A stretch of DNA of 29,725 nt. It comes from a virus. The stretch's first letter is position 1; the number at the start of each line of letters is the position of its first letter. Made by a program: the position numbers and the translations under genes. This document shows positions 2,953 to 20,680 of this stretch, piece by piece. The stretch is taken from the IMG/VR virus record IMGVR_UViG_3300012209_000022, positions 1 through 29,725 of that record, one strand, 5' to 3'. A model generated the notes under the pieces. The model worked only from the letters and a program-made list of their open reading frames with translations, was not told where the DNA came from and did no database searches.

Positions 2953-4658
2953 CAATACGGCAGCTGATATCTCCGCGTGACCGCATGGTCACGCTACCGG
3001 ATGGCATTCCCGAGCTAACGCTGGGCTGGGAGGCCATTAACTGGGCGTCCACGTACATCAAGCAGCCGGATGGTGAGAATGCCGGCCAGGCCTGGGAGTT
3101 TGTGGAGTCGCAGACAAGGTTCATACTGTGGTGGTACAGCCTGTCTGACAATGCACGGTGGATATACACGCACGGCGTGCGCCGTTTCGCCAAGGGATAC
3201 GGCAAATCGCCATTCGCTGCGGTGATGGGCCTGATTGAGTTGCTTGCACCAGTACGATTCGCTGGCTGGTGCGACAATGACGGGCTGTGCGTGGGATGTC
3301 GGACTCATTCCGGGTGCGACCATGTGGTCGGGCGACGTGTTGGGATGCCGCTCGTCCAGATAGCCGCAACCGCGCATGACCAGGCTAACATCAACACCAT
3401 GCGAATGGTGCGGGCAATGGTGCCCAAGAAGTCCCGCATACGGGATGACTATGAAGTTGATACCGGCAAGACAGTCTTCCATGTGCCGGGCGGCGGACAG
3501 CTGATGATCATCACCAGCAGTCCGACAACTGCCGAAGGCGCACTGGTGACGTTCGGGATCCTAGATCAGACGGAGAGTTTCTACAGTGTCAATGGGGGAA
3601 TTGATCTTGCAGAGGCTATGGACCGCAATGCGCGGAAGTCAGGCTCTAGGCTGCTTGAGACCAGTAATGCCTGGATACCCGGTAAGGATTCTGTTGCTGA
3701 GAGTACGTTCGAGGCTTGGGTCGCGCAGGAAGAGGGCAGGCTCAAGGGTGAGCAGAAGATCCTCTACGATGCCAGGCAGGCTCCGCCGAATGTCGACTGG
3801 GAAGATGTAGGCAGCATTCGCAGCGCTGTTGAGTTTGCATATGGCGACGCCTACTGGGTGAACGTTGAGGACATCGTCGAGGCCATCCTTAGTCCGCGCA
3901 CTCCGCTGGACGTTACCAAGCGCTTCTACCTGAACTGGCCAGAAGCTGCCGAGGATGCCTGGGTCCTGCCGGAGCAATGGCGCGCCATGGCCGCTCCAGC
4001 GCACCATCTTCCCGACGGTGCGCCGATTACGCTCGGGTTCGATGGCAGCCGGGTAGATGACGCCACGGCGCTAATCGGCTGCGAGATTCTCACGGGATTC
4101 GTGTTCGAGATCGGCATATGGGAGACCAGAGATGCGCGTGGCGGCAGGATCCCCATTCCTATCCACGAGGTTGAGGCTGCACTTGACATGGCATTCGACC
4201 GCTGGGACGTCTGGGCGTTCTTCGCCGACGTCAAAGAATGGGAGGAGAGCACCAAGGTTGCCTGGCGCGCCAAGTACATGGAGATCCTGGAGGAGCGTGT
4301 CTGGGCCGTGCCTGGCGGCCGGGATCCACAGCCTATCGCCTGGGATATGCGCAGCCACGTGGGCGAGTTCACCGCCGCCTGCGAGATGGTACAGAAGGAG
4401 ATCGAGAATGGTGCGTATGAGCACGATGGCTCCAGTCTGCTAGGTAAGCACGTCATCAACTCGCGCCGTGCGCCGAATCGCTGGGGTATCAGCATCTCTA
4501 AGGAAGCGCCGAAATCTGTGCGCAAGATAGATGGCAATGTTGCCCAGATCATCGTGCGCCATGCGCGGAGACTGGTACTTAGCAGCAAGCCATGGCAGGA
4601 GCGCAAGGCCAAGGCTGGCAGGCCAGCCAAGGGTGGACGAGTCTGGAGCTGGAGCTAG
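2949..4658 (+). CDS. terL: Terminase large subunit (ATPase and nuclease)
   Basis: A 569-residue packaging motor. It translocates phage DNA into the procapsid by ATP hydrolysis and cuts the concatemer. The N-terminal ATPase has a divergent Walker A at residues 79-88 (RFAKGYGKSP) and a Walker B-like FGILDQTE at 202-209 with E209 as the probable catalytic acid. The C-terminal RuvC-like nuclease shows the expected acidic residues D365 (GFDGS), D427 (FADVKEWE) and D528 (KIDGNVA). An unusual insertion at about 107-126 carries C108, C114, C117, C123 and H125, a possible zinc site between Walker A and the next beta strand. The start overlaps the upstream stop (ATGA). Length is typical of the family. 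Confidence 0.93.
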   Translation: MTIRQLISPRDRMVTLPDGIPELTLGWEAINWASTYIKQPDGENAGQAWEFVESQTRFILWWYSLSDNARWIYTHGVRRFAKGYGKSPFAAVMGLIELLAPVRFAGWCDNDGLCVGCRTHSGCDHVVGRRVGMPLVQIAATAHDQANINTMRMVRAMVPKKSRIRDDYEVDTGKTVFHVPGGGQLMIITSSPTTAEGALVTFGILDQTESFYSVNGGIDLAEAMDRNARKSGSRLLETSNAWIPGKDSVAESTFEAWVAQEEGRLKGEQKILYDARQAPPNVDWEDVGSIRSAVEFAYGDAYWVNVEDIVEAILSPRTPLDVTKRFYLNWPEAAEDAWVLPEQWRAMAAPAHHLPDGAPITLGFDGSRVDDATALIGCEILTGFVFEIGIWETRDARGGRIPIPIHEVEAALDMAFDRWDVWAFFADVKEWEESTKVAWRAKYMEILEERVWAVPGGRDPQPIAWDMRSHVGEFTAACEMVQKEIENGAYEHDGSSLLGKHVINSRRAPNRWGISISKEAPKSVRKIDGNVAQIIVRHARRLVLSSKPWQERKAKAGRPAKGGRVWSWS

Positions 4659-4743: not shown

Positions 4744-6354
4744 GTGATCATAGACCAGCCGGATCTCGCCAAGGTTGCCGGAGCCCTCATCAACACTCAC
4801 ATGCGCGACCAGGCGCGCCTGCGACGGATAGACAAGTACATGCGCAACCGGCCGGATCCGCCATTCGCGCCCAAGGGTGCCAGCACTGAGTATCGCTGGC
4901 TCATGGCGCGCTCCAAGCGAAACTTCCTGCCATTGGTAACATCCGTTATCAGCCAGAACCTGCACGTTGATGGTTACCGGCGCTCTGGCGCCACGACGGC
5001 CGATATGGCGAAAGCCTCGGTGCCGGAATGGGATGCATTCCGGGCGAACCGTTTCGTCAGCCGGCAGCATGGCGTCCACCGTGCGGTGATGAAGCATGGG
5101 ATCTCGTACGTTGTCGTCCTGCCTGGATCCATGGCTGTTGGACAGGAGATACAGAATGTTCCGGTGATGCGAGCATGCAGCGCGCGGAGGATGGTGGCGC
5201 TGTACACTGATCCGGTGAATGATGAATGGCCGCAGGTTGCCATGGAGCGTCTTGATGTCTATGACCCTGCTGTCGTGGGCAAGCGTCGCATCATCGTCAC
5301 CATCTATGACGAGCAGAATCGCTATATCCTCACCGGCGTGCCAGGCGAGAACACTGCGCCGTTGCAGCTTGCTGAGGATGGCGACCCGTATCTGGACGGC
5401 AAGGCTCCAGTCGCTGCCCACAACATGGGTCTCGTTCCGGTGGTCAGGTTCTTGTATGAGGACGACCTGGACGGCGAGGATGTTGCCGGCGAGGTTGAGC
5501 CGCTCATTGCCATCCAGGACCAGATCAACTTCTTCACCTTCAACGAGATGATGACGACCCAGTTCGCTGCCTTTCGCCAGCGCTGGGTGAGCGGGATGGC
5601 CTCCGAGGATGAGCAGGGTAGGTCGACCGAGCCATTTCGACCGGGCATCGACCGTATCTGGGCTAGCGATGATCCTGCTACCAAGTTCGGGGAGTTTGAC
5701 GTCTCACCGTTGCAGCCCTACATTGACTCGCGTGAGGCAGCTATTCGGCATATGTCCACGGTGTCGCAGGTGCCGCCATATCACCTGCTCGGGCAGATCG
5801 CCAACCTGTCCGCAGAAGCACTTGCAGCCGCCAGGGATGGCCTAGACCGCAAGATCGAGGAAGAACAGTCAATGCTCACCGACAGCTGGAGGAACTGCTT
5901 CCGGCTGATGTCTAAGGCTGTTGATGACAATGATGGCTGGACAGACATGAATGGCATCGTGGTGTGGCGCGACACCAGTGCCCGGTCCTTCGCCGCCACC
6001 GTTGATGGGCTCACCAAGGTTGCCCAGATGCTGGGTGTGCCGGTCGAGGAACTTTGGCGGCGCATACCTGGCGTCACGGCTGATGACATCGAAGCCTGGC
6101 TTGAGGCCAAGGCGCGTGCTGAGGCTGAGGCGACCGCCCAGGAGGCGGCCAGGGTTGCCATGGCCGTGCAGACGCAGCAGCTGCTCTCGCCGTATCCACC
6201 GCCACAGGGTGGGCAACCGGCTGGCCCAGGCCAGCCAGGCTTGCAAAATGGCGCACAATCGCAGCAGAAGGCTTTGCCAGGCATCCCCGGCGGCCAGGCC
6301 CAGCCTCGCAGCCCGGCGACCGCCCGGGGACCGGGAGGTAAGCCACCGCAATGA
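4744..6354 (+). CDS. Portal protein (SPP1 gp6-like family)
   Basis: A 536-residue protein that should form the dodecameric ring at the capsid vertex through which DNA enters and leaves. The N-terminal RRIDKYMRNRP...NFLPLVTSVISQNLHVDGYR pattern, the IYDEQNRYIL wing region, and the VVRFLYEDDLDGEDVAGEVEPLIAIQDQINFF helix region are typical of SPP1 gp6-type portals. The last 70 residues are Ala/Glu- then Pro/Gly/Gln-rich and probably disordered. The start is GTG at 4744, preceded by TAGGAG (4733-4738). The gene ends in a 4-nt ATGA overlap with the MuF-like gene. Length and order (terL-portal-MuF) fit well. Confidence 0.93.
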   Translation: MIIDQPDLAKVAGALINTHMRDQARLRRIDKYMRNRPDPPFAPKGASTEYRWLMARSKRNFLPLVTSVISQNLHVDGYRRSGATTADMAKASVPEWDAFRANRFVSRQHGVHRAVMKHGISYVVVLPGSMAVGQEIQNVPVMRACSARRMVALYTDPVNDEWPQVAMERLDVYDPAVVGKRRIIVTIYDEQNRYILTGVPGENTAPLQLAEDGDPYLDGKAPVAAHNMGLVPVVRFLYEDDLDGEDVAGEVEPLIAIQDQINFFTFNEMMTTQFAAFRQRWVSGMASEDEQGRSTEPFRPGIDRIWASDDPATKFGEFDVSPLQPYIDSREAAIRHMSTVSQVPPYHLLGQIANLSAEALAAARDGLDRKIEEEQSMLTDSWRNCFRLMSKAVDDNDGWTDMNGIVVWRDTSARSFAATVDGLTKVAQMLGVPVEELWRRIPGVTADDIEAWLEAKARAEAEATAQEAARVAMAVQTQQLLSPYPPPQGGQPAGPGQPGLQNGAQSQQKALPGIPGGQAQPRSPATARGPGGKPPQ

Positions 6355-7295
6355 CGACGCCTGCGATTGGGACGGGAAATAGGCTGGCTCAGCCTGGTCG
6401 ACCCATACCCGTACCTACCCGGACGCTTCCGGCGACCCTGATGTCCGATCCAATCGCATCCAGGACGCTGGTGCTCCCTGGCCAGGTTACGCTGGCCCAG
6501 CTTGCCGTCCTGTACCGGCAGAGGCAGATGGCTATCGGCCTGGCGGCCAGCCGGGCGATCTCGGCGCTGTGGGCTCGGCATATCGATCCAGCCCGCATGG
6601 CCGACAGCTGGGCCAGCATCCGCGATATCGTGCTGAGTCTGGTGAGACAGTACTTCCAGGCCTCTGCGGCGGACTCTGCTAAGTCGTATGAGCAGATGCG
6701 AGTGCTGGCCGATCTTGGACACAGATCGACGGCGATGGCCAGGCTTCCGCAGCGTGAGCTTGAGAGGGTTGTGGACAGCCAGGGCATAGGGCACTTCTTC
6801 CAGATGATGCCGACGCTGGAAGATCCCCAGCTTGCTTCGGATGCGGCTGACCTTTCGCTCCAGTCCTCCGGTGCTAGGCTGGCGCTCAAGGGCGGCCGAC
6901 AGACAATCGTTGATGCCGTTCATGTGGATCCGGAGGCGAATGGCTGGGAGCGTATCATTTCCGGGAATGCCTGCAGCTTCTGCTCCATGCTGGCTGGTCG
7001 CGGCGCGGTCTACAAGTCTCAGAAGAGCGCTGACTTCCGCGCGCATGATCATTGCAATTGTACGGCTGCGCCGTTGTTCCAGGGCCAGGAGCTGTTGCAG
7101 CAGAGCAGGGAACTGGCCCAGCAGTGGCAGCAGGTGACCAAAGGCAAGGCAGGAGCTAATGCCAGGAAAGCCTGGCAGCAACATTGGGAGAACCAGAATG
7201 GCGGCATCGGATCTGACAGCGGAAGCACGCCAGCGTTTGAAGAAAATCGGACAGGCGATGGCGCCCAGCAGCAGCAACGAATCGGACAGCCCTAG
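6351..7295 (+). CDS. MuF-like minor head protein
   Basis: A 314-residue protein of the phage Mu gpF / VG15-like family, a minor internal head protein associated with the portal. The diagnostic region has C208-x2-C211 (ACSFCSMLAGRGAVY) followed by H232-D-H-C235-N-C237 (AHDHCNCTA), a probable zinc-binding cluster. The N-terminal two thirds is helical (ASRAISALWARHID; WASIRDIVLSLVRQYFQ). The C-terminal 35 residues are Gln/Gly-rich and are encoded in a region that overlaps the next gene by 98 nt in another frame. It starts by ATGA overlap with the portal gene. The family call is strong. Confidence 0.9.
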   Translation: MTTPAIGTGNRLAQPGRPIPVPTRTLPATLMSDPIASRTLVLPGQVTLAQLAVLYRQRQMAIGLAASRAISALWARHIDPARMADSWASIRDIVLSLVRQYFQASAADSAKSYEQMRVLADLGHRSTAMARLPQRELERVVDSQGIGHFFQMMPTLEDPQLASDAADLSLQSSGARLALKGGRQTIVDAVHVDPEANGWERIISGNACSFCSMLAGRGAVYKSQKSADFRAHDHCNCTAAPLFQGQELLQQSRELAQQWQQVTKGKAGANARKAWQQHWENQNGGIGSDSGSTPAFEENRTGDGAQQQQRIGQP

Positions 7296-7497: not shown

Positions 7498-7761
7498 ATG
7501 GTCGCCGGTAGGGAGGTAACTCCTCAGGATGTCTCATCTACGGAGCGCCTGATGAAGTACTGGGCCGAGGGTGCTGGAGCGGCCAAGATTCGCTGGGGTG
7601 TGCCGGGCGACTTCGATCGTTGCGTCGTCGAGCTTGGCAAGTATGTTGGGCCAGGCGTCGTCAAGGGACTGTGCGCCAACCTGCACAAGAGAGCCACAGG
7701 CGGATGGCCGGGCCATGCACCTGGAGTAGAACAGGCGATGTCCGAACAGAAGAAGGGATAG
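7498..7761 (+). CDS. Conserved hypothetical protein, KIRWG/CANLHKRATG type
   Basis: An 87-residue protein with the pattern RLMKYWAEGAGAAKIRWGVPGDFDRCVVELGKYV...VKGLCANLHKRATGGWP. I recognise it as a short module frequent in actinophage head operons, sometimes fused to capsid proteases or portal-linked proteins. Two Cys residues (C42, C59) are present, with no membrane segment. The ATG follows the previous stop codon directly, with GGAGG upstream at 7486-7490. The function has not been established to my knowledge. The conservation pattern and packing make it a confident gene. Confidence 0.75.
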   Translation: MVAGREVTPQDVSSTERLMKYWAEGAGAAKIRWGVPGDFDRCVVELGKYVGPGVVKGLCANLHKRATGGWPGHAPGVEQAMSEQKKG

Positions 7762-7763
7762 CA

Positions 7764-8066
7764 ATGGCAATCACTAAGACATACCTCGGACAGAACGAGG
7801 ACGGTACCCCGCACTTCGACTACGTGTCGGACGGGCACGTGCTCGTTACCGGTCCAGTCTACGGGAAGATGACGACCTCGGACGGTACGGAATACGACGT
7901 ATCCGATCAGGTGATCGAAGTTGCCTCGCCGGAGCACGGCGGTGAACTCGCGCATCTCATCGGCGTTTACCACGAAGAGTACGGACACCCGCATCACGAC
8001 CCATCGATTCCGTTCGTGCACACCTGCACCGACTCGTGCGGCGTGCTGAAGCGAGAGGACGCCTAA
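7764..8066 (+). CDS. Conserved hypothetical protein with His/Cys-rich C-terminus
   Basis: A 100-residue acidic protein starting MAITKTYLGQ. The ATG at 7764 lies 2 nt after the preceding stop and follows AGAAGGGA. The N-terminal two thirds looks beta-rich (HVLVTGPVYGKMTTSDGTEYDVSD). The C-terminal part clusters H and C (LIGVYHEEYGHPHHDP; FVHTCTDSCG), a possible metal-binding site. Codon use is strongly biased to C/G at third positions, like the capsid and major tail protein genes, which hints at high expression. It resembles small proteins of Streptomyces phages I have seen, with no known function. A capsid-associated role is inferred only from position and codon bias. Confidence 0.72.
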   Translation: MAITKTYLGQNEDGTPHFDYVSDGHVLVTGPVYGKMTTSDGTEYDVSDQVIEVASPEHGGELAHLIGVYHEEYGHPHHDPSIPFVHTCTDSCGVLKREDA

Positions 8067-8069
8067 GTC

Positions 8070-8462
8070 ATGGCACTGCTTGGAACTGCAGGACAGAGCC
8101 AGGCTCTCAATGCGCAGGATGCCACGGGTACTGGTGCCGGAACAGGCGCTGTCAACCTGATGGCGGCCGTGGCGCTGCATACTGCTACGCCTGGTACAAC
8201 CGGTACCTCGGAGAATGCTAACTCTGGCTCCTACGCTCGACAGACAACGGCGTGGAGCTCATCGTCGGCGGGATCGGCTAAGACCAACTCGTCGGCGCTG
8301 ACGTTCTCGACGCTAGGTACCGTTGCTGTTACGCACGTAGCAGGATGGTCGTCAGCTACCTATGGTGCAGGCACCTATGGTATCGGTGCTCCCCTGGGAT
8401 CGTCTGTCACGGCGGCATCGATTACCGTTGCATCTGGCGCAATCAGCTTTACCGCTAGTTGA
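8070..8462 (+). CDS. Tail-fibre-like / surface beta protein
   Basis: A 130-residue Ser/Thr/Ala/Gly-rich protein. The pattern AVALHTATPGTTGTSE...GSYARQTTAWSS...TFSTLGTVAVTHVAGWSSATYGAGTYGIGAPLGSSV...ITVASGAISFTAS is the compact domain commonly annotated as a phage tail-fibre protein in actinobacterial prophages: a jelly-roll-like virion accessory protein. Its location in the head module, upstream of scaffold and capsid, makes a head-surface role as likely as a tail one. It starts 3 nt after the preceding stop. No enzymatic motif is seen. Confidence 0.7.
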   Translation: MALLGTAGQSQALNAQDATGTGAGTGAVNLMAAVALHTATPGTTGTSENANSGSYARQTTAWSSSSAGSAKTNSSALTFSTLGTVAVTHVAGWSSATYGAGTYGIGAPLGSSVTAASITVASGAISFTAS

Positions 8463-8475
8463 GGAGGAGAACGAT

Positions 8476-9045
8476 ATGTCTGTTCGCTGGACCTACCCCG
8501 TCGGGCCAAGCCTCGGCTTCGCAGACGGGGCCACCGCTTCCACCGCCGCGCTGGTGGACATCACCCCTGGCACCGAGCCGCCGCTGATTCCTCCGATCTG
8601 GGAAAAGGGGATGCGGCTGCGGGTCAAGGCGCACGGCTGGTGTACTTCTGGGTCTGCGACTCCGACATTGCAGATTGGCCTATACCTGGCCGCGCCAGCG
8701 ACGGCGATCGCGTCGGCGCTGGTGCTGGCAATCTCTGGGGCCATGCCGCTGCCTGCATCGGTTACGCAGGGTCCGTGGGAGTTGAACTACGAGGCTGACT
8801 GCCGGGCGCTGTCCACGCCTGCGGCGGCTACGGCCGGGCAGCTTGCCGGGCGCGGCCACATCCTGCCGCCCAGCTCGCTGACCGCGTTCGGGACGCCGCA
8901 GGCGATTCCCGGCACCTATGCGGGGCGGCTGCTGTCGTTCAACTCGACCCTTCAGCAGAATCTGCTGATCGGCGCCACCTTCTCGGCGATAACAGGAACA
9001 CCGTCATTGGCGTGCGAGCATCTAACTGCTGAGCTAATCGGATAG
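8476..9045 (+). CDS. Beta-rich virion-associated hypothetical protein
   Basis: A 189-residue protein. The ATG at 8476 follows a very strong RBS (GAGGAGGAG, 8461-8469). Upstream in-frame ATGs at 8362 onwards would run through the preceding gene and are rejected. The sequence is hydrophobic-alternating (LRVKAHGWCTSGSATPTLQIGLYL; WELNYEADCRAL) and looks like a beta-sandwich of about 180 residues. The end is AITGTPSLACEHLTAELIG. A diverged second copy of this last segment lies downstream at 9291-9356. Third-position GC is high. Function unknown; a head decoration or surface protein is plausible. Confidence 0.7.
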   Translation: MSVRWTYPVGPSLGFADGATASTAALVDITPGTEPPLIPPIWEKGMRLRVKAHGWCTSGSATPTLQIGLYLAAPATAIASALVLAISGAMPLPASVTQGPWELNYEADCRALSTPAAATAGQLAGRGHILPPSSLTAFGTPQAIPGTYAGRLLSFNSTLQQNLLIGATFSAITGTPSLACEHLTAELIG

Positions 9046-9057
9046 GGAGTTCCGTAA

Positions 9058-9291
9058 ATGGCTAATACGCAGGGTTACATCGTCATTAATGACGTGTTCG
9101 CCAATGGCCCGAGCCCAGAAGCCAGCGCTTCCGCCTGTGTACTGGCAGCAGACGGTACGCAGGCCAGGTATGCCCTTCAGGTGATTTTTGCCTACGGTGA
9201 CCCAGTTCAGAAGATTAGGCAGTCGCTGGTGGACAGCCTTCAGTCAGTGTCAGGAATTCCTGATCTTGACGTGAACTTCATTACCGGATGA
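9058..9291 (+). CDS. Small hypothetical protein
   Basis: A 77-residue protein (MANTQGYIVINDVFANG...), starting after GATAGGGAG at 9042-9050. It has a beta-like N-terminus, a segment ARYALQVIFAYGDPVQKIRQSLVDSL that looks like strand plus helix, and ends LDVNFITG. I do not recognise the family. Codon third positions are more mixed than in the genes on either side, and it ends exactly where a fossil copy of the previous gene's C-terminus begins. It may therefore have been inserted or exchanged by recombination. Confidence 0.6.
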   Translation: MANTQGYIVINDVFANGPSPEASASACVLAADGTQARYALQVIFAYGDPVQKIRQSLVDSLQSVSGIPDLDVNFITG

Positions 9292-9356: not shown

Positions 9357-9381
9357 CCCTTTCCGGCTTAGGAGGGCGCCC

Positions 9382-11910
9382 ATGGTTGCCACTCTCCGTG
9401 CCAGTACGCCTACATACACCAGCGCTGCTAGCGATACCTCTTTCCCGATTGCGATGCCCACTGGGTGGCAGCCCGGTGATGTCGTTTACATCGGGATAGA
9501 GAATCGCGGTACCGGTGCGGGTGTTACTACTCCGGCCGGATGGACTGCGGTTGCGCCCGTGTTCAATCCAGTGGGGCAGACCAACACCTGCCAGGTTGTT
9601 CTCCGCCGGGTGATGCAGGCCGGTGATGCCGATCCGCTGGCCATCACCGTGGTCTCAGGGCGCATCGCCGCCATCTCCGTGGCGGCGGTGGGCGCTGACA
9701 CTGCTGCCCCCGAAGACTCGGTCACCCCCTCGGAGGCCGCCCAGTCGGCGGCGACCAACAGCCCGGTGGCGAACTCGGTCACCCCCAACGGGGCCGATGA
9801 CCTGCTGCTCACGTTCTTCGGCGCGGGCGACCCGACCACGGCGAACGTGGCCATGACGTTCACCGCCCCGGCCGGGATGACATTGGTAGCTCAGGCGAGC
9901 ACCGCCCAGGTCGGCGCTACTGACGCCGGGCTGATGATCGCCAGCCTGGCGCTTACCAGCAATGCGGCTACGGCTACGCAGACGGCGACTATCACCCCAT
10001 CATCCGGGGCAGTGGCATGTAATAGCCAGGCTGTCACGCTGGTCGTCAAGTCTGCCGCCGTCGCTGCCGTTGCCGCAGCTACGGCTCAGCCCGCCTGGCT
10101 GCCCACCGGCCCGGGAATGCCCGGGGCCGCGCCGTTTACCCAGAACCCGCAGGAACCCGGGCCACCGCCGCCTTCGTATGCGCTGGCGTCCGACTCGCAG
10201 CCCGCTGGGTCGTCGTCGTTCCAGAAGACAATCACCCACGACGTGGCACAGGGTGATACGCTGGTGGCGTTTGTTTCTTCTAACAGCCAGGCGACAGCAG
10301 GCAACGGGTTCAGCGACTCGGCTGGAAACGACTGGCGACAGGTGGCGCAGGATACCAACCGGTCTCCTAACCTGACCGTGTTTGTGGCGCAGAACGCTCG
10401 ACCGATGGCCAGCGGAACGGGTACGGTAACGGCAACGTTCGCTGGCACAGCCACGGTCAAAAATATGGTTGTCCGGGGCTGTCCTGGGATGGCTAGCGTG
10501 TGCGCCGTGGACCAGTTGGTGATGGCCGATCTGGGCTCGGGCACCACGCCGGGGGTGACTACGCAATCGCTGTACGCACCGGGTGAATGGGCACTGTTGG
10601 GCATCACTGATGGCACCGCTGGTGGGGCGCCTTCGAACTGGCTCGGCGGGTTTAGCCCCGGCCCGTCCATAGGTCCCGGCCCGTTCCTGACGGTCGGTGA
10701 CTGTTTCCCGCAGGGCACATCTCCGTTGGTCGGCACAGCGAACATAGTTGCTTCGACGTGGACAGCCGTCATCATCACCCTGTCCCCGGTGCAGGTGAGT
10801 CCGCCACCGCTAATGACGCCTTACCTGCTAGCCGGGTTGCCTGGGTTGCCCGGTATGCCCGGAGGCCCGCCATTCATGTCGTGGCCGCCAATAATCCCTG
10901 GTGCCCCTACAGGTGTAGTTACTGCTACTGCGTCGGGTAACCTGAATATCTCTGGTACGGCTATCGGTGCGGCTCCAGTTACGGCTGCAGGCAATCTGGA
11001 CGTCTCTGGAGTGGCTGCCTGGCAGATATCAGCTGTAGCGGGAAGTATAAGCATATCCGGAACTGGTCCGCCTGGGGCTCTGATCCCTGCCGTATCTGGA
11101 TCCTTGAACCTTGCCGGGACGTCTGCTGCAGCTGCTCCGATAGCTTTGGCCGGGTCACTAAGTCTTACAGGATCAGCTTTGGCTGTGGCTACGGCTGTCG
11201 CTAGTGGCTCGATCAGCCTAGCCGGCACGGGTCCGCCAGGGGATGTTGTTACGGCCGTCTCTGGTTCGCTGAATATCTCTGGCACTTCCGTGGCTGTAGC
11301 CAGGGCCACTGCCTCTGGCTCGCTGAGTCTATCCGGAACTGCTACGGCTGTGGCCGTGGCTGTGGCGTCCGGATCACTGGTAATAAACGGAACAGCGGCA
11401 TGGCAGATATCTGTCGTGGCCGGATCGTTGGCGATAACTGGAACGGTTACCGCCAAGGCTGCAGCTGCAGCAGTGGGGTCGCTGGCAATAAACGGAACGG
11501 CAATTGGCCCCGGCAATAATGCAGCCGGATCTTTGTCTATTGTCGGCACTAACATCACGGCACAGGCTGCCGTATCTGCAGCAGGCACCCTTGCTATTGC
11601 CGGTGTGGCCACAGCCAGGGTGGCTATACTAGCGTCTGGCATACTGGTTATTACTGGCTCGGCACAGGCAGGTGTTCAGGCGACTGCTATTGCAACTATG
11701 GCAATCGTCGGGTCTGTTATGGCAAGGGCTAATGCCGTTGCCTCTGGCTCTCTGTCTATCGTCGGCGTGGCCGCTGCATTTGCCGGTGTGCCAGATTTCC
11801 ATGTGAAGGCTGTCGTTCTCCTTGATGGATTGTCGGCTATCGTTTCCATTGATGGATTGTCGGCTGGCGTGCAAACCGACATACTTAGTGCGGAGGTTAC
11901 AGGTGGCTGA
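9382..11910 (+). CDS. Large modular repeat protein, probable virion surface fibre or decoration
   Basis: An 842-residue protein; the ATG follows TAGGAGG at 9369-9375. Residues about 1-225 and 268-475 look like two beta-sandwich domains with related patterns (ending TATITPSSGA...VTLVV and TAVIITLSP). They are joined by a Pro/Gly linker (LPTGPGMPGAAPF) and followed by a second collagen-like linker (LLAGLPGLPGMPGGPP). Residues 519-796 contain 16 tandem units with a GSLxIxGT core. The tail has short DGLSAxV repeats (LDGLSAIVSIDGLSAGV). No signal peptide, transmembrane segment or catalytic motif is seen. Third-position GC drops from the linker onwards, suggesting a mosaic gene. It lies among head genes, so a capsid-surface adhesin or fibre is inferred. 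Confidence 0.8.
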   Translation: MVATLRASTPTYTSAASDTSFPIAMPTGWQPGDVVYIGIENRGTGAGVTTPAGWTAVAPVFNPVGQTNTCQVVLRRVMQAGDADPLAITVVSGRIAAISVAAVGADTAAPEDSVTPSEAAQSAATNSPVANSVTPNGADDLLLTFFGAGDPTTANVAMTFTAPAGMTLVAQASTAQVGATDAGLMIASLALTSNAATATQTATITPSSGAVACNSQAVTLVVKSAAVAAVAAATAQPAWLPTGPGMPGAAPFTQNPQEPGPPPPSYALASDSQPAGSSSFQKTITHDVAQGDTLVAFVSSNSQATAGNGFSDSAGNDWRQVAQDTNRSPNLTVFVAQNARPMASGTGTVTATFAGTATVKNMVVRGCPGMASVCAVDQLVMADLGSGTTPGVTTQSLYAPGEWALLGITDGTAGGAPSNWLGGFSPGPSIGPGPFLTVGDCFPQGTSPLVGTANIVASTWTAVIITLSPVQVSPPPLMTPYLLAGLPGLPGMPGGPPFMSWPPIIPGAPTGVVTATASGNLNISGTAIGAAPVTAAGNLDVSGVAAWQISAVAGSISISGTGPPGALIPAVSGSLNLAGTSAAAAPIALAGSLSLTGSALAVATAVASGSISLAGTGPPGDVVTAVSGSLNISGTSVAVARATASGSLSLSGTATAVAVAVASGSLVINGTAAWQISVVAGSLAITGTVTAKAAAAAVGSLAINGTAIGPGNNAAGSLSIVGTNITAQAAVSAAGTLAIAGVATARVAILASGILVITGSAQAGVQATAIATMAIVGSVMARANAVASGSLSIVGVAAAFAGVPDFHVKAVVLLDGLSAIVSIDGLSAGVQTDILSAEVTGG
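10936..11769 (+). repeat. 16 tandem coding repeats, GSLxIxGT core, 17-19 residues each
   Basis: Within the 842-residue protein the 8-residue core recurs 16 times: for example GNLNISGT, GSISISGT, GSLNLAGT, GSLSLSGT, GSLAITGT, GSLSIVGV. The cores are separated by 9-11 residues rich in Ala and Val. DNA period is about 51-57 bp. A higher-order pattern is visible: GTGPPG follows the 3rd and 6th cores, and AAWQIS follows the 2nd and 9th. Such regular short beta units would suit a beta-solenoid or a stacked fibre. DNA copies are diverged at third positions, so this is not a recent expansion. Confidence 0.85.
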
Positions 11911-12247
11911 CGACGGTAGTATTCTGGCATTCCCGCAGAATAACGACATCGTTCTGACCTTCAAGGTCACTGATCCTAGCAATGGGAATGCGCCGTTCGT
12001 ATTGACCGGGTGTACCTTGACTTTTCTTCGTAAGAAGGGCAAGTATGTGCCTGATACTGATCCGTCTGCCAGATCGTACTCTGTTGTTATCGATCCAGAT
12101 CAGGTCACGAATCCTGGTAAGGCTACTGTGTCTATACCGGCTGCAGACAATGGCGTCTCTGGAGTTTCGTGGGCGCGTATGGACGTTGTAAAGAGCGGGA
12201 AACTGAGGACGGCCAACACATGGGTGATGGAAATAGGAGCAGTCTGA
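11903..12247 (+). CDS. Ig-like / BppU-N-like beta-sandwich protein
   Basis: A 114-residue protein starting at GTG 11903, selected because GGAGG (11892-11896) lies 6 nt upstream. It overlaps the end of the repeat protein by 8 nt. The upstream ATG at 11822 would overlap that gene much further without an RBS. The pattern NNDIVLTFKVTDPSNG...FVLTGCTLTFLRKKG...SYSVVIDPDQVTNPGKATVSIPAAD...SWARMDVV resembles small phage Ig-like domains such as the N-terminal domain of baseplate upper proteins, used to plug fibres onto virions. It may be an attachment partner for the preceding repeat protein; this is inference from adjacency. Confidence 0.68.
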   Translation: MADDGSILAFPQNNDIVLTFKVTDPSNGNAPFVLTGCTLTFLRKKGKYVPDTDPSARSYSVVIDPDQVTNPGKATVSIPAADNGVSGVSWARMDVVKSGKLRTANTWVMEIGAV

Positions 12248-12408: not shown

Positions 12409-13092
12409 ATGTCGCATTCAGCAGCCGGGGAGCCAGCCGGAACGGCAGGCTCCCAGGGCGATGGCGCTGGTCAGCCGCAAGGCGACGGCCAGCGCCAGGA
12501 CCCAGCTGCCCAGCCTGATGGCGCAACGTCTGGGGCTGCGGATGGCAGCGACGATGGCGGCCAGGAGGACCTGGCCGCTCAGCTGGCGCACTGGAAGGCC
12601 CAGGCCAGGAAGCACGAGGCTAGGGCCAAGGACAATGCCAAGGCAGCAGCCGAATGGCAGAAGCAGCAGGACGCCAACAAGACGGAACTACAGCGTGCCC
12701 AGGAAGCGCAGCAAGCGGCAGAGCGCGAGCGCGATGAAGCCCGAGGAATGCATGCGCGGATCATGGCGGCTGCAACTCACGACGTTCCAGTGGACCTGAT
12801 TGACCTTCTCGGAACCGGAACGGCCGAGGAGATCGGAGAGCGTGCCGAGATGCTATCCAGCACGATCAGGGCCGAGGCCATGGCGATTGCCAGGCAGACG
12901 GTGGAGGCGATGGGGTACACGTGGCCGGGAAATGGCCAGAGTGGTACCGCGTCAACTGCTGCAGGAGCAGCCCGTGCGTCTGGCCGTCCGGTGGAGTCGT
13001 TGGCAGGCGGAACTAGCCCACAGCACGGCACCCAGCCGGTGACGAGCGACGAGTGGTTCCGTGACATGGTCAGTCAATCTCGAGGTTACTAA
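12409..13092 (+). CDS. Capsid scaffolding protein
   Basis: A 227-residue protein with the composition of siphovirus scaffolds: a Gly/Gln/Asp-rich disordered N-terminus (about 1-55), a charged helical coiled coil (LAHWKAQARKHEARAKDNAKAA through QEAQQAAERERDEARG, about 59-115), a helical middle (AEEIGERAEMLSSTIRAEAMAIARQTVEAMG), and a disordered tail ending near DEWFRDMVSQSRGY. It directs capsid assembly inside the procapsid and is then lost. The ATG follows TAGGAGAGGA at 12393-12402. It lies directly before the major capsid gene, as usual. No protease motif is seen. Confidence 0.85.
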   Translation: MSHSAAGEPAGTAGSQGDGAGQPQGDGQRQDPAAQPDGATSGAADGSDDGGQEDLAAQLAHWKAQARKHEARAKDNAKAAAEWQKQQDANKTELQRAQEAQQAAERERDEARGMHARIMAAATHDVPVDLIDLLGTGTAEEIGERAEMLSSTIRAEAMAIARQTVEAMGYTWPGNGQSGTASTAAGAARASGRPVESLAGGTSPQHGTQPVTSDEWFRDMVSQSRGY

Positions 13093-13135: not shown

Positions 13136-14389
13136 GTGACGAACGTATACAACACGTCGATCTCGAGGACTTCCGGGCAGGCGGATGCGCTCGTCCCGGA
13201 GCCCCTGTCGACGTCGATCATCGAGGAGCTGCCGCGCAAGTCGGCTGCGCTCAGCCTGATGCAGCGGACTACTCTCTCCAGCAAGACCCAGCGTATTCCT
13301 GTGCTGGACATCCTGCCCGTCAGCTACTGGGTCTCCGGCGACACCGGCATGAAGCAGACCACCTTCCAGGGATGGAAGAACGTGGTCCTGGTGGTCGAGG
13401 AACTGGCCACCATCGTTCCGATCCCGCAGGCGTACCTGGACGACGCTGACATGCCGATCTGGTCGGCCGTGCAGCCGCGCATGGTCGAGTCGGCAGGTGC
13501 CCTCATCGACAATGCCGTCCTGTTCGGTCTCAACAAGCCGGCCACCTGGGGTGAGTCGGTGTTCGTCGGCGCCAAGAAGACGTTGCAGGTCGTGAAGGCC
13601 GGCACCGGCGTTGACTATGGCGTGGACGTTACGAACCTGGCGCAGAAGATCGTGCAGGCCGGATACAATCCGGCAGGCGCAGCAGCCATGCCTGGGCTCA
13701 GCTGGAAGCTGGTCGGCATTCGGTCGGCGCAGGGTGTGCCGATCTACGAGCCGGACATGCAGGGTGGCGACGGCAACGCCAATGGCAGGCTGTACGGCCG
13801 TCAGCTTGCCGAGATCGACAACGGTGCCTGGAACGCTACGTCGACCGGTGCCGAGCTGCTGCTCGGCGACTGGAGTAAGTCGATGGTCGGCGTCCGTCAG
13901 GACATCAGCTTCAAGATGTTCACCGAAGGTGTCGTGTCGAATGACTCCGGCAAGGTCATCCTGAACCTGATGCAGCAGGACGCCGTGGCCATGCGGATGG
14001 TCATGCGGCTCGCCTATGCTGTCGTCAACCCGGTGACGGTCCTCAACCCGGCTTCCAGCATCACGGCCCGCTGGCCGTTCGGTGCAATTCTGCCGACGAC
14101 TGCGACGGCTCCGATCACCGCTGCGGCGCTGACTCAGATGACGTCCTACGCAACGGCCGGTGCGTACACCGGCTTCGACCCGTCCAGCATCTCGGGTCTG
14201 AGCGACGAGGCGGCCGTTGAGCATGTCAAGCAGATGCACGCTGTTGCGGCGTCGCAGGCTGCGGACTACGAGGACTTCCTCAGGGAGAAGGGTATCAGCG
14301 CAGCTCAGCTGCGTCGCAACGTCAAGGAGCTGCGGACTCCGAGCGAGGAGGGTGCTGCGCCGGAGCAGACGCCGGAGCAGGAGGGCTGA
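13136..14389 (+). CDS. Major capsid protein (HK97 fold)
   Basis: A 417-residue HK97-fold shell protein. Recognisable parts are the N-arm (SGQADALVPEPLSTSIIEELPRKSAALSL), the E-loop and P-domain start (SKTQRIPVLDILPVSYWVSGDTGMKQTTFQGWKNVVLVVEELATIVPIPQAYLDDA), and the A-domain region with ADYGVD/LGDWSKSMVGVRQDISFKMFTEG and NLMQQDAVAMRMVMRLAYAVVNP. A C-terminal extension (about 350-417) is Glu/Pro-rich and helical. GTG start at 13136 with AAGAGG (13124-13129) 6 nt upstream. Third-position GC is very high compared with the packaging genes, consistent with heavy expression. No upstream delta domain or separate maturation protease is evident in this window. Confidence 0.93.
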   Translation: MTNVYNTSISRTSGQADALVPEPLSTSIIEELPRKSAALSLMQRTTLSSKTQRIPVLDILPVSYWVSGDTGMKQTTFQGWKNVVLVVEELATIVPIPQAYLDDADMPIWSAVQPRMVESAGALIDNAVLFGLNKPATWGESVFVGAKKTLQVVKAGTGVDYGVDVTNLAQKIVQAGYNPAGAAAMPGLSWKLVGIRSAQGVPIYEPDMQGGDGNANGRLYGRQLAEIDNGAWNATSTGAELLLGDWSKSMVGVRQDISFKMFTEGVVSNDSGKVILNLMQQDAVAMRMVMRLAYAVVNPVTVLNPASSITARWPFGAILPTTATAPITAAALTQMTSYATAGAYTGFDPSSISGLSDEAAVEHVKQMHAVAASQAADYEDFLREKGISAAQLRRNVKELRTPSEEGAAPEQTPEQEG

Positions 14390-15740: not shown

Positions 15741-16126
15741 CGAACCTGGCTGCATTCCCGGATGCTGAGATTGAACTGCTCGGCGTGCTCGGCTCGAAGT
15801 TCTCTAGCTACCGATTTTGCACCAGTCTGCCGGCCCAGATAACCCAGACCACGGCTCGTATCAAGCGTATTAGTGGTGCAAATCGTAACATCGGCTGGGA
15901 CCGTCCAATTGTGGACATCGATGTCTTCTCGCCAACTGGCGAGGCGGATGCCAGTACTGCGGGCAGAGCGATTCAGGCAGCGCTCCTCTCGCTTGCTGGT
16001 ACGACTACCACGAATGGCGTGATTCAGAGAGTTGCGACCATCAATGGCCCACGCTGGCTGCCAACTGACAATCAGTCAATCATTAGGTATGGAGCAACGT
16101 ACGAGGTGTTTATTCGTGCCTCGTAG
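15737..16126 (+). CDS. Tail terminator protein
   Basis: A 129-residue protein that by position and pattern caps the tail tube on the head-proximal end. FPDAEIELLGVLGSKFSSYRFCTSLPAQ, then a beta-rich TARIKRISGANRN...DRPIVDIDVFSPTGEADASTAGRAIQAALLSL and IRYGATYEVFIRAS, resembles lambda gpU / SPP1 gp17-type tail terminators, including the 'DV-FS' strand and following helix. It begins by ATGA overlap with the gp10-like gene. Its 3' end is overlapped by the HNH gene, whose GTG lies 11 nt before the end. Confidence 0.8.
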   Translation: MTNLAAFPDAEIELLGVLGSKFSSYRFCTSLPAQITQTTARIKRISGANRNIGWDRPIVDIDVFSPTGEADASTAGRAIQAALLSLAGTTTTNGVIQRVATINGPRWLPTDNQSIIRYGATYEVFIRAS

Positions 16127-16460
16127 CGCTAGACTTTGTAGATGCGGCAACAAGATCAGGGGCCGCAATAAGTCAGGGCTTTGCTTCTTGTGTTTCAGAC
16201 AGCCTTCTGGCTCAGATAGTTATTTCTGGCGCGATAAGAGTCACAACTGGAAAGGTGGTGATGTGGGTCGTACTCAGCTTCACAGGAGGATTAACGACGA
16301 AAGGGGAAGAGCCAAAACTCATGTCTGCATATGTGGCGGGCAGGCTGAGGAATGGTCGTATATACACGGCACAGATAAGTATGATGCAGGCAATTATCGT
16401 GCTTTGTGCGTACCTTGCCACAGAAAATATGATCTAGGTCGTAAGGAGACGAAAACATGA
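16116..16460 (+). CDS. HNH endonuclease (probable homing type)
   Basis: A 114-residue protein from GTG 16116, with GAGG at 16103-16106 upstream. It has an N-terminal zinc-ribbon-like C-x-C...C-x2-C (LCRCGNKIRG; GLCFLCF), then GDVGRTQLHRRINDERG, and a C-terminal HNH-like core: HVCICGG, WSYIHGTD, YDAGNYRALCVPCHRKYD with C-x2-C-H. Free-standing HNH genes between virion genes are typical phage homing endonucleases that cut cognate genomes lacking the insert. The base composition is visibly AT-richer than both neighbours, and rare codons are frequent, supporting recent transfer. Its stop overlaps the major tail protein start (ATGA). Confidence 0.85.
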   Translation: MPRSARLCRCGNKIRGRNKSGLCFLCFRQPSGSDSYFWRDKSHNWKGGDVGRTQLHRRINDERGRAKTHVCICGGQAEEWSYIHGTDKYDAGNYRALCVPCHRKYDLGRKETKT

Positions 16461-17517: not shown

Positions 17518-17960
17518 AGGCTGATCTGCAGCGCTACTTTGGCGTCAACTTCATAGACCTGTTCCGGCCTAGGAGTGGACTTACCTGGCGTCGTTTTTCG
17601 GTTCTGGTGGGCCAGCTTCCGCCGGAGAGTGCTACCTCGACTGCTGTTCGGAATAGCATTCCGGAGGATGAGCTCGAGAAGCGTCGTGTAGGTGACCCGA
17701 AGAGAGCGCCATGGTCCTCCATTGAGTTCTTGCTAGCCACGCTCATTGACGAGGTTAGGAATCTGTCGTGGATGTACGCCCAGTCGCATTCCAAGGGCAA
17801 GGTGCCGAGGCCGGAGCCTATTCCGCGACCTGGCGTCCAGGCCGGGAAACGACGTAGGCAGATGAGTGTTGAGGAGATCAAGGCCATTGACCCACGCCTC
17901 CGAGAGTTGTCTGATGAGGAGGCCATGCAGCGTTACAGGGAGATGACTGGCCGTGGCTGA
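17119..17960 (+). CDS. Tail assembly chaperone, long (GT) product via -1 frameshift
   Basis: A -1 slip at GGGGAAA (17466-17472) joins the first ORF to an overlapping frame that reads EIEKVLWLVETFPEELEADL and RYFGVNFIDLFR, then a helical, basic tail ending in DPRLRELSDEEAMQRYREMTGRG. The fused protein would be about 280 residues. The second frame has no convincing start of its own before 17607, and its first 45 codons read as good protein (the ETFPEELEADL segment is characteristic of the T part). The T domain binds the tape measure protein. Coordinates span both frames. The long form ends 8 nt into the tape measure gene. Confidence 0.88.
17466..17520 (+). promoter_or_regulatory. Programmed -1 frameshift signal: slippery site plus hairpin
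   Basis: The slippery heptamer G.GGG.AAA is in the correct phase at 17466-17472. Ten nt later a hairpin is seen: CCTCTGGCTC (17483-17492) pairs with GAGCTAGAGG (17511-17520), 10 base pairs including one G-U, with an 18-nt loop. The zero-frame stop (17515-17517) lies in its right arm. G.GGG.AAA is a known actinophage chaperone slip site; a downstream stem that stalls the ribosome is a classic stimulator. Confidence 0.8.
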
Positions 17961-20679
17961 GATCTTTGTTGGAGAAGTGGCTGTTGGCGTCGTTCCGGAT
18001 GCTAGGAACTTCAACGATGAGATGCGCAAGCAGTTGTTCCCTGAGGCTGATAATGTGGGCCGGGAGTATGGAGCCAAGCTCGGTCGTGGTATCCAGGAGT
18101 CCATCAGGATAAGCATCGAGAAGGTAAAGGCTGATCTGGAGAAGGAGGGATTCAAGGCCAATGTGGACGCTGATACCACAAAGGCCAAGGACCAGATCGA
18201 TACCATGCGCGCGGAGCAGGAGGCTCGGCCGGTTAAGGTCAAGGTGGAGACTGATCAGAACAGTCTCCGAAGGTTCGGCAGCAATCTAGCATCGCAGCTT
18301 CGTCAGTCACTTGGCCGTATTGCACTAGGCAGCCTTATCGGTGGCGGCCTGTTCGGAGGCGGCTCGGCATTGTTGGCCGGTATTGGGCCACTGGGTGCTG
18401 CGACGCTCGGAATAGGTGCAGCCGCAGCATTCATCGTTCCTGAGATCACCAAGGCTACTGCAGCGCTTGGCAAGTTTGGCGCGGCACGCAAGACAGCGTT
18501 TGCTAGGCTGACACCGCAAGAGCGTGAAATGGCGCGTTCCCTAGAGGGCATCAAGAAGTCATTCCAGGATCTACAGAAGGAGCTAGCTCCGGCTGTAGAT
18601 AAGTTGATCCAACTGGGAGCCGGGTTCATCAAGAGCATCCTCCCGGAATTGCTGTCATTTGCTTCTGTCGGGATCAGTGTCATTCAGAACTTCCTCATGC
18701 CATTTTCGGCCTGGGTCAAGACGAAAGCATTCGAACAGCTCTCCGACCAGTTTGCCCAGTTCGGTGATGCGGCTGGTGCTATTGTAGGTCCGCAGCTGGT
18801 TCAGCTCATGAAGGCATTCTCGCAGCTGTTCCTACAGTTGCTTCCTACTGGATTGCAATTGCTCAAGGTTCTGATCCCGCTTATCACGATCCTGATCATA
18901 GCACTTACTCCGGGCATCGTAATTATGGCCAAGCTTGCCGTGGCCGCACTTACCTGGCTAACGGCTAACCATCTTCTGATTCCTGCTATTTTCGCTATTT
19001 CGGCTGCTATTGTCATCCTCATGGGCGCTACTGGCCTTGGCGGTATCATCGCGGCCACCATTGCCGTTGGCTTGGCCACTGGCTTTCTGGCCACTCACTG
19101 GAAGCAGATCTGGCAGGACATCAAGAACTGGGCCCAGGATGCCTGGAACTTCCTGACTCATGGCTGGGGCCAGTTCCTTTTCCCCGGCCTGAAGCTGATC
19201 ATCATCACGGTTGATTTCGTGAGTGCCCACTGGCGTGCAGCCTGGAATGGCATGAAGAGTGCGGCCACAACATTGTGGAAGTTTGTCGGGCCATTGTTCA
19301 AGATTGGCTTCGATATCATCGTCGGTCTCTTCCTGCTGTTGGCCAAGATTGCCGGTGTGGTATGGAAGGCTCTGGTGCTTGATGCTAAGATATGGTGGGC
19401 TGTGACAAAGCCTATCCTGGACGTATTCGGTAAGGTTGCCGTCTTTGTGTTCAAGAACATCATTCTGCCTGCCGCTAAGTTCCTGTGGGACCATTTCCTG
19501 TCTCAGATCAGTTCCGCCATCGAGGGCGGAAAGCGGCTGTTTCGAGTGTTCCTTACGGTGCTGCTCAATATCTTCGGCGCCATCATTCACGGGGCGGCAC
19601 AGGCATTCGGATGGGTTCCCGGTCTTGGCGGTAAGCTGAAGGATGCTGCCCACCAGTTCGATATCTTCAAGTCTCGTGTCAACGCGGCGCTCGGCGGTAT
19701 TAACGGCAGAACCGTGAATGTGGGCGTGGCGTTTGCTGCGGCTCGATCCGGCAGGGGCCAGGGCCCAGCCCTAGCGAAGCCTCTGGCCAGAGGTGGCCCT
19801 ATCTATGGCGAGGGTACTGCCACGAGCGATTCCAACCTGGCGCTACTCAGCCATGGGGAATGGGTCATCAAGCAAGCTAGTGCTGCCAAGTACGGCAACA
19901 AGGCTATGGCCGCCATCAATGAAGGCCGAGCCTGGATCGGATATGCCAATGGTGGCCTGGTTGGGTATGCGACAGGTGGTGGCGTGAATGTCAAGACCGT
20001 TCTACCCTCTAGCTCTGCCATAGCCGATGCGCTTATTCCCGTTGTCATTGCGATGGCAAAGACATTCGGGAATCAGCTAGCTGCAGCCGCAGCTGCTGCT
20101 GGTGGTTCGGGAGGGCCAGCCTCCGGCGCGGTGCGTGCGTTGCAACAATATGCGGCGTCCCTGTTCCATTTCTACGGCTGGGGCGGCAATCAGCTTCCAC
20201 CATTGATAGCTCTGTGGAATGGCGAGTCTGGATGGAATCCACGCGCGCGGAATCCGTCGTCTGGGGCATTCGGGATCCCGCAGGCACTACCGCCTGGGAA
20301 GATGGGCGCCCTGGCCGCCTCGGGCAATGCGGCTGCTCAGATCAGATGGGGCGAAGGTTATATTCACCAGGTCTACGGAACTCCGGCTAATGCGTACGGT
20401 ACATGGCTGCGCCGGTCCCCGCACTGGTATGACGAGGGCGGCTGGATGTATCCTGGCGAGATCGGCATGAGCAAGGCTACCAAGCCTGAGCCGGTCCTGA
20501 CGTCGGGCCAATGGGATGCCATCTACTCGGCTGCCAGCAAGGGTGGCAGCGGTAGTACGGAATACCATGCACACTTTGATGGGATGACTCGCCAGGTGTT
20601 GCGGGCTGAAGTTCGCCAGTCGTTCCAGGAGATGGAGATTGGAAAGGGCAAGCTGGCGAGAATGGGACGGAGGAATTGA
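17953..20679 (+). CDS. Tape measure protein with lytic-transglycosylase-like domain
   Basis: A 908-residue protein that sets tail length and is ejected with DNA. It starts at GTG 17953, overlapping the chaperone by 8 nt. Residues 1-115 are helical and charged. About 115-165 and 300-385 are hydrophobic, membrane-interacting segments (SLIGGGLFGGGSALLAGIG; LKVLIPLITILIIALTPGIV). A Trp-rich middle (WKQIWQDIKNWAQDAWNFLT) follows. Around 735-830 is an SLT/lysozyme-like domain: LIALWNGESGWNPRARNPSSGAFGIPQ with E758 as probable catalytic acid, to cut peptidoglycan. At about 0.15 nm per residue, a tail near 135 nm is expected (inference). Confidence 0.92.
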   Translation: MAEIFVGEVAVGVVPDARNFNDEMRKQLFPEADNVGREYGAKLGRGIQESIRISIEKVKADLEKEGFKANVDADTTKAKDQIDTMRAEQEARPVKVKVETDQNSLRRFGSNLASQLRQSLGRIALGSLIGGGLFGGGSALLAGIGPLGAATLGIGAAAAFIVPEITKATAALGKFGAARKTAFARLTPQEREMARSLEGIKKSFQDLQKELAPAVDKLIQLGAGFIKSILPELLSFASVGISVIQNFLMPFSAWVKTKAFEQLSDQFAQFGDAAGAIVGPQLVQLMKAFSQLFLQLLPTGLQLLKVLIPLITILIIALTPGIVIMAKLAVAALTWLTANHLLIPAIFAISAAIVILMGATGLGGIIAATIAVGLATGFLATHWKQIWQDIKNWAQDAWNFLTHGWGQFLFPGLKLIIITVDFVSAHWRAAWNGMKSAATTLWKFVGPLFKIGFDIIVGLFLLLAKIAGVVWKALVLDAKIWWAVTKPILDVFGKVAVFVFKNIILPAAKFLWDHFLSQISSAIEGGKRLFRVFLTVLLNIFGAIIHGAAQAFGWVPGLGGKLKDAAHQFDIFKSRVNAALGGINGRTVNVGVAFAAARSGRGQGPALAKPLARGGPIYGEGTATSDSNLALLSHGEWVIKQASAAKYGNKAMAAINEGRAWIGYANGGLVGYATGGGVNVKTVLPSSSAIADALIPVVIAMAKTFGNQLAAAAAAAGGSGGPASGAVRALQQYAASLFHFYGWGGNQLPPLIALWNGESGWNPRARNPSSGAFGIPQALPPGKMGALAASGNAAAQIRWGEGYIHQVYGTPANAYGTWLRRSPHWYDEGGWMYPGEIGMSKATKPEPVLTSGQWDAIYSAASKGGSGSTEYHAHFDGMTRQVLRAEVRQSFQEMEIGKGKLARMGRRN

Positions 20680-20680
20680 T

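Follow-up and report, generated by a model that had tools for sequence, protein, structure and literature searches.

Introduction

The neck passage structure (NPS) of the lactococcal 936 and P335 phages is a collar fibre, accessory and BppU-like, whose heads are of CBM or beta-helix type (PMC6669499, PMC10747895, PMC4759559). Ig-fold mounts for fibres are known from BppU of TP901-1 and FibL/FibU of 80alpha (PMC7048315), and in T5 and DT57C a small stand-alone beta-sandwich, LtfC, is the mount of a separate long fibre, LtfA, whose short strands, in DT57C, are added to the LtfC sheets at their edges (PMC10713586). Beside the scaffold gene, in the head operon of SPP1, lies the gene of gp12, an accessory surface protein of 64 aa that forms a collagen-like trimer on the capsid (PMC6316719, PMC7602432).

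We analysed a 29.7-kb viral record of a siphovirus-type phage (henceforth the window, meaning the whole stretch of DNA under study), in which an 842-aa fibre-like protein and a 114-aa Ig-fold protein are encoded side by side in the head operon. The initial annotation had suggested that the pair could be a capsid-surface fibre with its anchor, possibly for attachment to mucus, mycelium or soil polymers; a fibre-like protein with an Ig-fold anchor is supported below, and for its site the capsid surface is a less likely candidate. In our reading, to which we give roughly even credence, the window fibre is an accessory one that serves adhesion, the Ig-fold protein is its BppU/LtfC-like mount, and the most likely site of both is the neck or portal vertex. 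The kind, that of accessory BppU/NPS-type adhesion fibres, is already known, and the window pair is a variant of it.

The window fibre would share with NPS the character of an accessory, variable adhesion fibre of 500-900 aa with a BppU-like beta-sandwich mount and a stalk, present in only part of its group, and the CBM or beta-helix head of NPS is a further likeness. It differs in that its mount is a separate gene, whereas that of NPS is the N-terminus of the same chain, with the head C-terminal; in that it seems to be anchored by its C-terminus and begins with variable beta domains; in its location between MuF and scaffold, the NPS gene lying upstream of mtp; and in its stalk, a predicted beta-solenoid rather than a coiled coil. 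The single-chain architecture of NPS (BppU-like N-domain, stalk, C-terminal CBM or beta-helix) was not found in the window, which has two genes. Compared with BppU and FibU, the window mount is a free 114-aa domain without a coiled coil, collagen or fibre part, with no sequence similarity detected, and its site need not be the baseplate. With LtfC-LtfA it shares the combination of small beta-sandwich mount and separate long fibre and, as a proposal only for the window, docking by strand augmentation; LtfA, however, is anchored N-terminally, at the tail tip, and the Pfam LtfC family matches not the window protein but, weakly, the adaptor of a spike locus described below (L042). Like gp12, the fibre would be an accessory surface protein encoded beside the scaffold gene, but it has 842 aa, a predicted solenoid and a separate Ig partner, and a gp12-like collagen repeat was not found, Pfam Collagen giving no match to the fibre (P0001).

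Gene order of the window

The genes of the window that bear on the fibre and its partner are as follows, "slot" being the interval between the MuF and scaffold genes.

2949-4658, terminase large subunit
4744-6354, portal, SPP1-type (PF05133)
6351-7295, + strand, MuF/VG15-type minor head protein (PF25310), which bounds the slot upstream
7498-9291, small genes between the MuF gene and the fibre gene
8070-8462, PHROG 240 'head protein', among these small genes
9382-11910, + strand, fibre gene, 842 aa (P0001), without Pfam or PHROG family
11903-12247, + strand, partner of 114 aa with an Ig fold of BppU-N/LtfC-like type, putative mount of the fibre
12409-13092, + strand, scaffolding protein, downstream border of the slot
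13136-14389, + strand, major capsid protein
17953-20679, large gene, placed and sized like a tape-measure gene
20639-21637, Dit (phrog_33, E 3e-14)
21610-27378, Tal/Gp37-type tip gene, 1922 aa (PF14594, E 6e-26)

The annotated neighbours confirm the location first described for the fibre gene, with a MuF-type gene on one side and the scaffold gene on the other. Since the phage has its own Dit and Tal/Gp37-type tip gene, that is, a normal tail tip, the 842-aa fibre is additional. Elsewhere in the window, an HNH-endonuclease-like ORF (16126-16460, motif CxC..HRRINDERG..H..CVPCHRKYD) lies between two tail genes and a methyltransferase-like ORF (1540-2121, MIEIGSYTGGSLWAW) lies upstream of the terminase. 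For the gene after the tail tip, 27383-28318, the matching PHROG families carry the labels virion structural protein or head protein; such head-type labels beside the tail tip make them an unreliable guide to where a protein is located.

The fibre gene encodes two putative N-terminal domains and a sixteen-unit repeat

The fibre ORF starts with ATG and is uninterrupted over 842 residues. A minus-strand ORF at 10821-11642 was dismissed as a gene and taken as a GC-rich mirror frame. Within and around the fibre gene we distinguish:

9370-9375, + strand, strong Shine-Dalgarno AGGAGG of the fibre gene (direct reading)
9382-10056, + strand, N-terminal domain 1, residues 1-225, predicted beta-sandwich
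10177-10794, + strand, domain 2, residues 266-471
10795-10935, + strand, Pro-rich linker, residues 472-518, with ~4 GxP triplets (direct reading)
10936-11787, + strand, 16 GSLxIxGT-type units, predicted beta-solenoid stalk
11788-11910, + strand, C-terminal tail, residues 803-842, with 10-residue strand-like repeats
11892-11896, + strand, Shine-Dalgarno GGAGG of the Ig-fold gene, within the last codons of the fibre gene

The AlphaFold2 model of the whole fibre, built on a shallow alignment, was poor (pLDDT 51.7, pTM 0.40). The two beta domains of the initial annotation are plausible, with only residues ~11-100 modelled at pLDDT about 50-80 and residues 103-460 mostly below 50. Domain 1 is weakly like carbohydrate-binding modules, a lectin and C1q-like domains (VIA Z 4.3-5.3) and had a relative only in L004 among the loci compared; domain 2, probably a second beta-sandwich on a low-confidence model, is missing from L004. 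The linkers had been called collagen-like, a generous term because they are Pro-rich with only ~4 GxP triplets (GLPGLPGMPGGP), and on this point the description was overstated.

The 16 GSLxIxGT-type units begin at residues 519-789 with a spacing of 17-19 residues; 2000 shufflings of residues 510-815 yielded 0.7 pattern matches on average and never more than 4, against 16 observed, so that the 842-residue protein with 16 units is confirmed by its open frame and by the repeat count. Residues ~511-790 were modelled as consecutive beta strands, with pLDDT mostly 60-83. Compared with beta-helix proteins, residues 504-806 gave a VIA Z of 18.1 with the depolymerase of Klebsiella phage P560, 17.2 with the EtpA adhesin and 16.1 with a beta-helical ice-binding protein, and no Foldseek match reached E < 0.001. 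The units are therefore predicted, with moderate model confidence, to form a beta-solenoid stalk, which would be roughly 7-8 nm long as judged from beta-helix geometry (16 coils at 4.8 A per coil). A prediction of unstructured repeats had been named as what would speak against the fibre; the prediction obtained is instead an ordered solenoid.

The partner protein has the fold of known fibre mounts

The Ig-fold gene starts with GTG at 11903, overlapping the fibre gene by 8 bases, and its product gave a good model (pLDDT 82.7, pTM 0.73, from a 24-row alignment), which supports the small Ig-like protein noted at the 3' end of the fibre gene. Its nearest folds were chain 4v96_AL of the TP901-1 baseplate (VIA Z 10.6, rmsd 2.8, 104 aligned) and chain 6v8i_AM of the 80alpha baseplate (Z 10.6), the latter with 123 residues, the reported length of visible FibU (PMC7048315). 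Further matches were to the N-domain of TP901-1 ORF48 (3uh8, Z 9.4), the NF5 and Douge baseplates (Z 9.7 and 9.3) and neck chains of Sf14 and Bas63 (Z 9.6 and 9.4), and the protein thus has the N-terminal beta-sandwich fold of BppU (Z 10.6 and 9.4). Tail-tip chains of T5 and DT57C followed at Z 9.0 and 8.9; these have 139 residues, close to LtfC in length. Ig-fold matches are commonplace, and the immunoglobulin and antibody-type background for this protein stood at Z ~7.5, below the top phage rows; the best VIA rows were nearly all phage attachment proteins. The role of an anchor, as first suggested for the Ig-like protein, is supported by this fold match to known fibre mounts.

At the sequence level, no BppU, baseplate or LtfC Pfam family was found at E 1 among the 24 members of the Ig alignment (A1), PF23926 (LtfC) had no match in any of them, the best PHROG match of the family reached E 0.0055 only, to an uncharacterised family, and a PDB sequence search with the family gave no match. 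Judging from the model, the protein probably works like a BppU/LtfC-type mount by fold, although its sequence does not place it in those families.

The same matches bear on the site of the pair. That neck chains are among them is in line with a site at the neck, but the solved mounts nearest in fold (BppU, FibU, LtfC) sit mostly at the baseplate or tail tip, and among the top BFVD matches are Microbacterium phage proteins annotated as minor tail or tail-fibre proteins, the former again pointing to the tail. The pair could accordingly be a side fibre of the tail or baseplate whose gene lies in the head operon by chance, with the Ig protein ringing Dit or the tail tip in the manner of BppU, FibU and LtfC; the late genes form one transcription unit, and gene position therefore need not equal the site in the particle. 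We consider this reading rather unlikely, given that in all loci seen the fibre-Ig pair lies between MuF and scaffold, distant from the tail-tip genes, and that the window has a separate canonical tail tip.

The slot between MuF and scaffold recurs with other adhesin-like proteins

We compared 80 viral loci related by capsid, fetched with the major capsid protein (13136-14389), and 33 related by the Ig protein; the latter were fetched with a sub-alignment, the whole Ig alignment being too divergent as a query. The loci are numbered with the prefix L. In many phages, including two actinobacterial genomes that we found, the MuF-scaffold interval is about 0-1 kb, and none of the cultured relatives checked (Muddy, JacoRen57, ReT1v-2, Golden) has a filled slot. 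Filled slots span 2.4-6.5 kb, each with one of several unrelated-looking large proteins:

Type a, window-type fibre with at least 16 units of 18 residues: the window, L003, L004
Type b, fibres built on 20-residue GSSATVSSASGxL units, their N-terminal beta domains differing: L011, L021, L027, L030-L033, L050, L089, and further L092, L094, L095, L097, L099, L102, L105
Type c, fibres with 18-residue LTDSGTGADTL units, without an Ig gene: L005-L009
Type d, pectate-lyase/beta-helix spikes: L013, L014, L016, L017, L042, L063 (with Pfam applied to L042 and L017)

In type b the Ig gene lies directly downstream of the fibre gene, and the N-domain of the L032 fibre resembles carbohydrate esterases in a sub-threshold match. 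Type c fibres (L005:4366-7257, L006:2-1792, L008:4102-7038) have a common C-terminus ending in ..GGSxxHIHR, and by eye the N-terminal sequence of those of L005 and L008 is lectin-like; that two fibre types (L005, L008) lack a neighbouring Ig gene speaks against our reading of the pair. The spikes of type d (L042:4079-7362, L017:2547-7333) have collagen linkers in several cases. Immediately 5' of the spike gene is a distinct adaptor gene that is related to phrog_1084 and is weakly LtfC-like (sub-threshold match of the L042 adaptor to PF23926, E 0.003), and the Ig gene lies farther upstream; no sequence link emerged when the profiles of the Ig family and of these adaptors were compared.

An empty slot in many related phages, including the cultured relatives, also fits a non-adhesin, that is, an internal, scaffolding-associated, non-displayed or poorly expressed insertion (moron) in a permissive slot, and the contents are dispensable, since the slot is so often empty. 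We judge this very unlikely, the contents being adhesin-like throughout (solenoid repeats, the L032 N-domain, and pectate-lyase spikes that have collagen linkers), the window fibre having a good ribosome-binding site and an overlap with the next gene, and its size making packaging within the head unlikely. The recurrence of the slot with other adhesin-like proteins favours an accessory fibre on the particle.

Of the capsid-fetched loci, 34 were distinct and had both borders; 11 of these had an ORF of at least 300 aa in the slot, and such a large ORF and the Ig gene co-occurred (9/14 vs 2/20, split counted by hand; Fisher p 0.002, with kinship ignored). The Ig gene was also present without a slot fibre in L037, L040, L044, L051 and L052, and a slot-type fibre, sought by its C-tail in further stretches of two of these, was not found. 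Because such phages exist, the Ig protein is not solely the mount of the fibre, and the idea of an adaptor for the slot fibre only is weakened; these phages suggest instead that the Ig protein is a particle component in its own right, with or without a fibre on top. In three of these phages, with the Ig gene and without the slot fibre, a Pro-rich gene of 280-309 aa lies directly 3' of the capsid gene (L040:9239-10168, L051:5096-5938, L052:7715-8593). In Ig-only phages, LamG-like domains (SGPxRYWPLND) occur in tail-tip proteins (L112:196-1845, L114:7207-10557), which suggests that adhesion modules are traded between sites.

An Ig gene kept without a fibre could equally be that of a capsid decoration protein, and with it returns the capsid-surface fibre of the initial annotation, which would then be placed on pentamers or hexamers. 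The gene pair adjoins the scaffold and capsid genes, the SPP1 gp12 capsid spike is encoded between scaffold and capsid genes (PMC6316719), and the capsid fibres of phage 7-7-1 are thought to be anchored at pentamers by Ig-type proteins (PMC12796354). Against this, the nearest folds of the Ig partner are ring mounts at neck or tail, unlike the capsid-lattice binders Hoc and pb10, and gp12 is a short collagen-like trimer, unlike the window fibre; we therefore regard a capsid site as unlikely.

C-terminal ends of slot fibres are more conserved than N-terminal ends

Across the 16 complete slot fibres, the C-terminal 75 residues matched in 66 of the 120 pairs and the N-terminal 180 residues in 19 of the 120. 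Because the C-ends, which lie beside the Ig gene, are the more conserved, these comparisons suggest that slot fibres are anchored by the C-terminus and carry a variable head at the N-terminus. Most phage fibres have the opposite polarity.

An HMM of the other slot-fibre tails recovered L003 at E 2.8e-4 and the window tail at E 0.004, roughly the level of a false positive, and a profile-profile comparison of the window tail with the other tails gave E 8e-8 over 36 columns, as a one-pair comparison; the window tail is thus a marginal candidate for a divergent relative of the others. Many related fibres terminate in GAGGTGAC.TAATG, and in the window (11892-11910) the terminal fibre codons are also the ribosome site of the Ig gene. 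The conserved AEVT end was rejected as proof of a protein contact, its codons being shared with the ribosome site of the next gene, and these residues may be conserved at the DNA level owing to that site.

Searches for homologues

Pfam, PHROG and a tblastn search against 50,697 phage records gave no relative of the fibre, a sister fibre or the Ig protein. A search of 396 actinobacterial genomes with the Ig profile gave no match (a weak negative, with no positive control), nor did a scan of genome contigs with Ig patterns. The capsid protein relatives found were only 55% identical, on Streptomyces and Nonomuraea contigs whose slot is empty.

Discussion

The adjacency of fibre and Ig genes beside the scaffold, the ordered repeat, the mount fold and the exchange of slot contents were computed here. 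In the mechanism that we propose for an accessory fibre with its mount, the Ig protein would build a ring or a set of mounts on the particle, onto which the short strand repeats at the fibre C-terminus would dock by strand augmentation, proposed because LtfA-LtfC of DT57C gives a physical model. The solenoid would keep the N-terminal beta-sandwich domains at a distance from the particle, where they may attach to a glycan of the host or the environment through many weak contacts, and such multivalent binding would boost adsorption ahead of tail-tip engagement. Placement at the neck or portal vertex, most likely from gene position and by analogy with neck-type precedents (the NPS collar and the whiskers of Sf14 and Bas63), is the least certain step of the proposal.

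A more far-reaching version, which we hold to be doubtful, is that the head operon of these uncultured soil phages holds an exchangeable adhesin socket, in which a conserved Ig-fold ring at the head or portal vertex would receive C-anchored solenoid fibres by strand augmentation, with a polarity opposite to that of ordinary phage fibres and with N-terminal heads swapped freely from lineage to lineage.

What appears unusual about the window pair is the separate, overlapping genes for mount and fibre, the apparent C-terminal anchoring and a hypervariable head-operon slot in uncultured phages. If our reading is true, it would be uncommon for a mount and its fibre to be split in this way with the fibre apparently anchored C-terminally, and adhesion of these phages would not be set by the tail genes alone, the head-operon slot constituting a second binding device that can be swapped. 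The two proteins of the window go unnamed in annotation libraries, and host-range prediction from tail genes only would overlook them.
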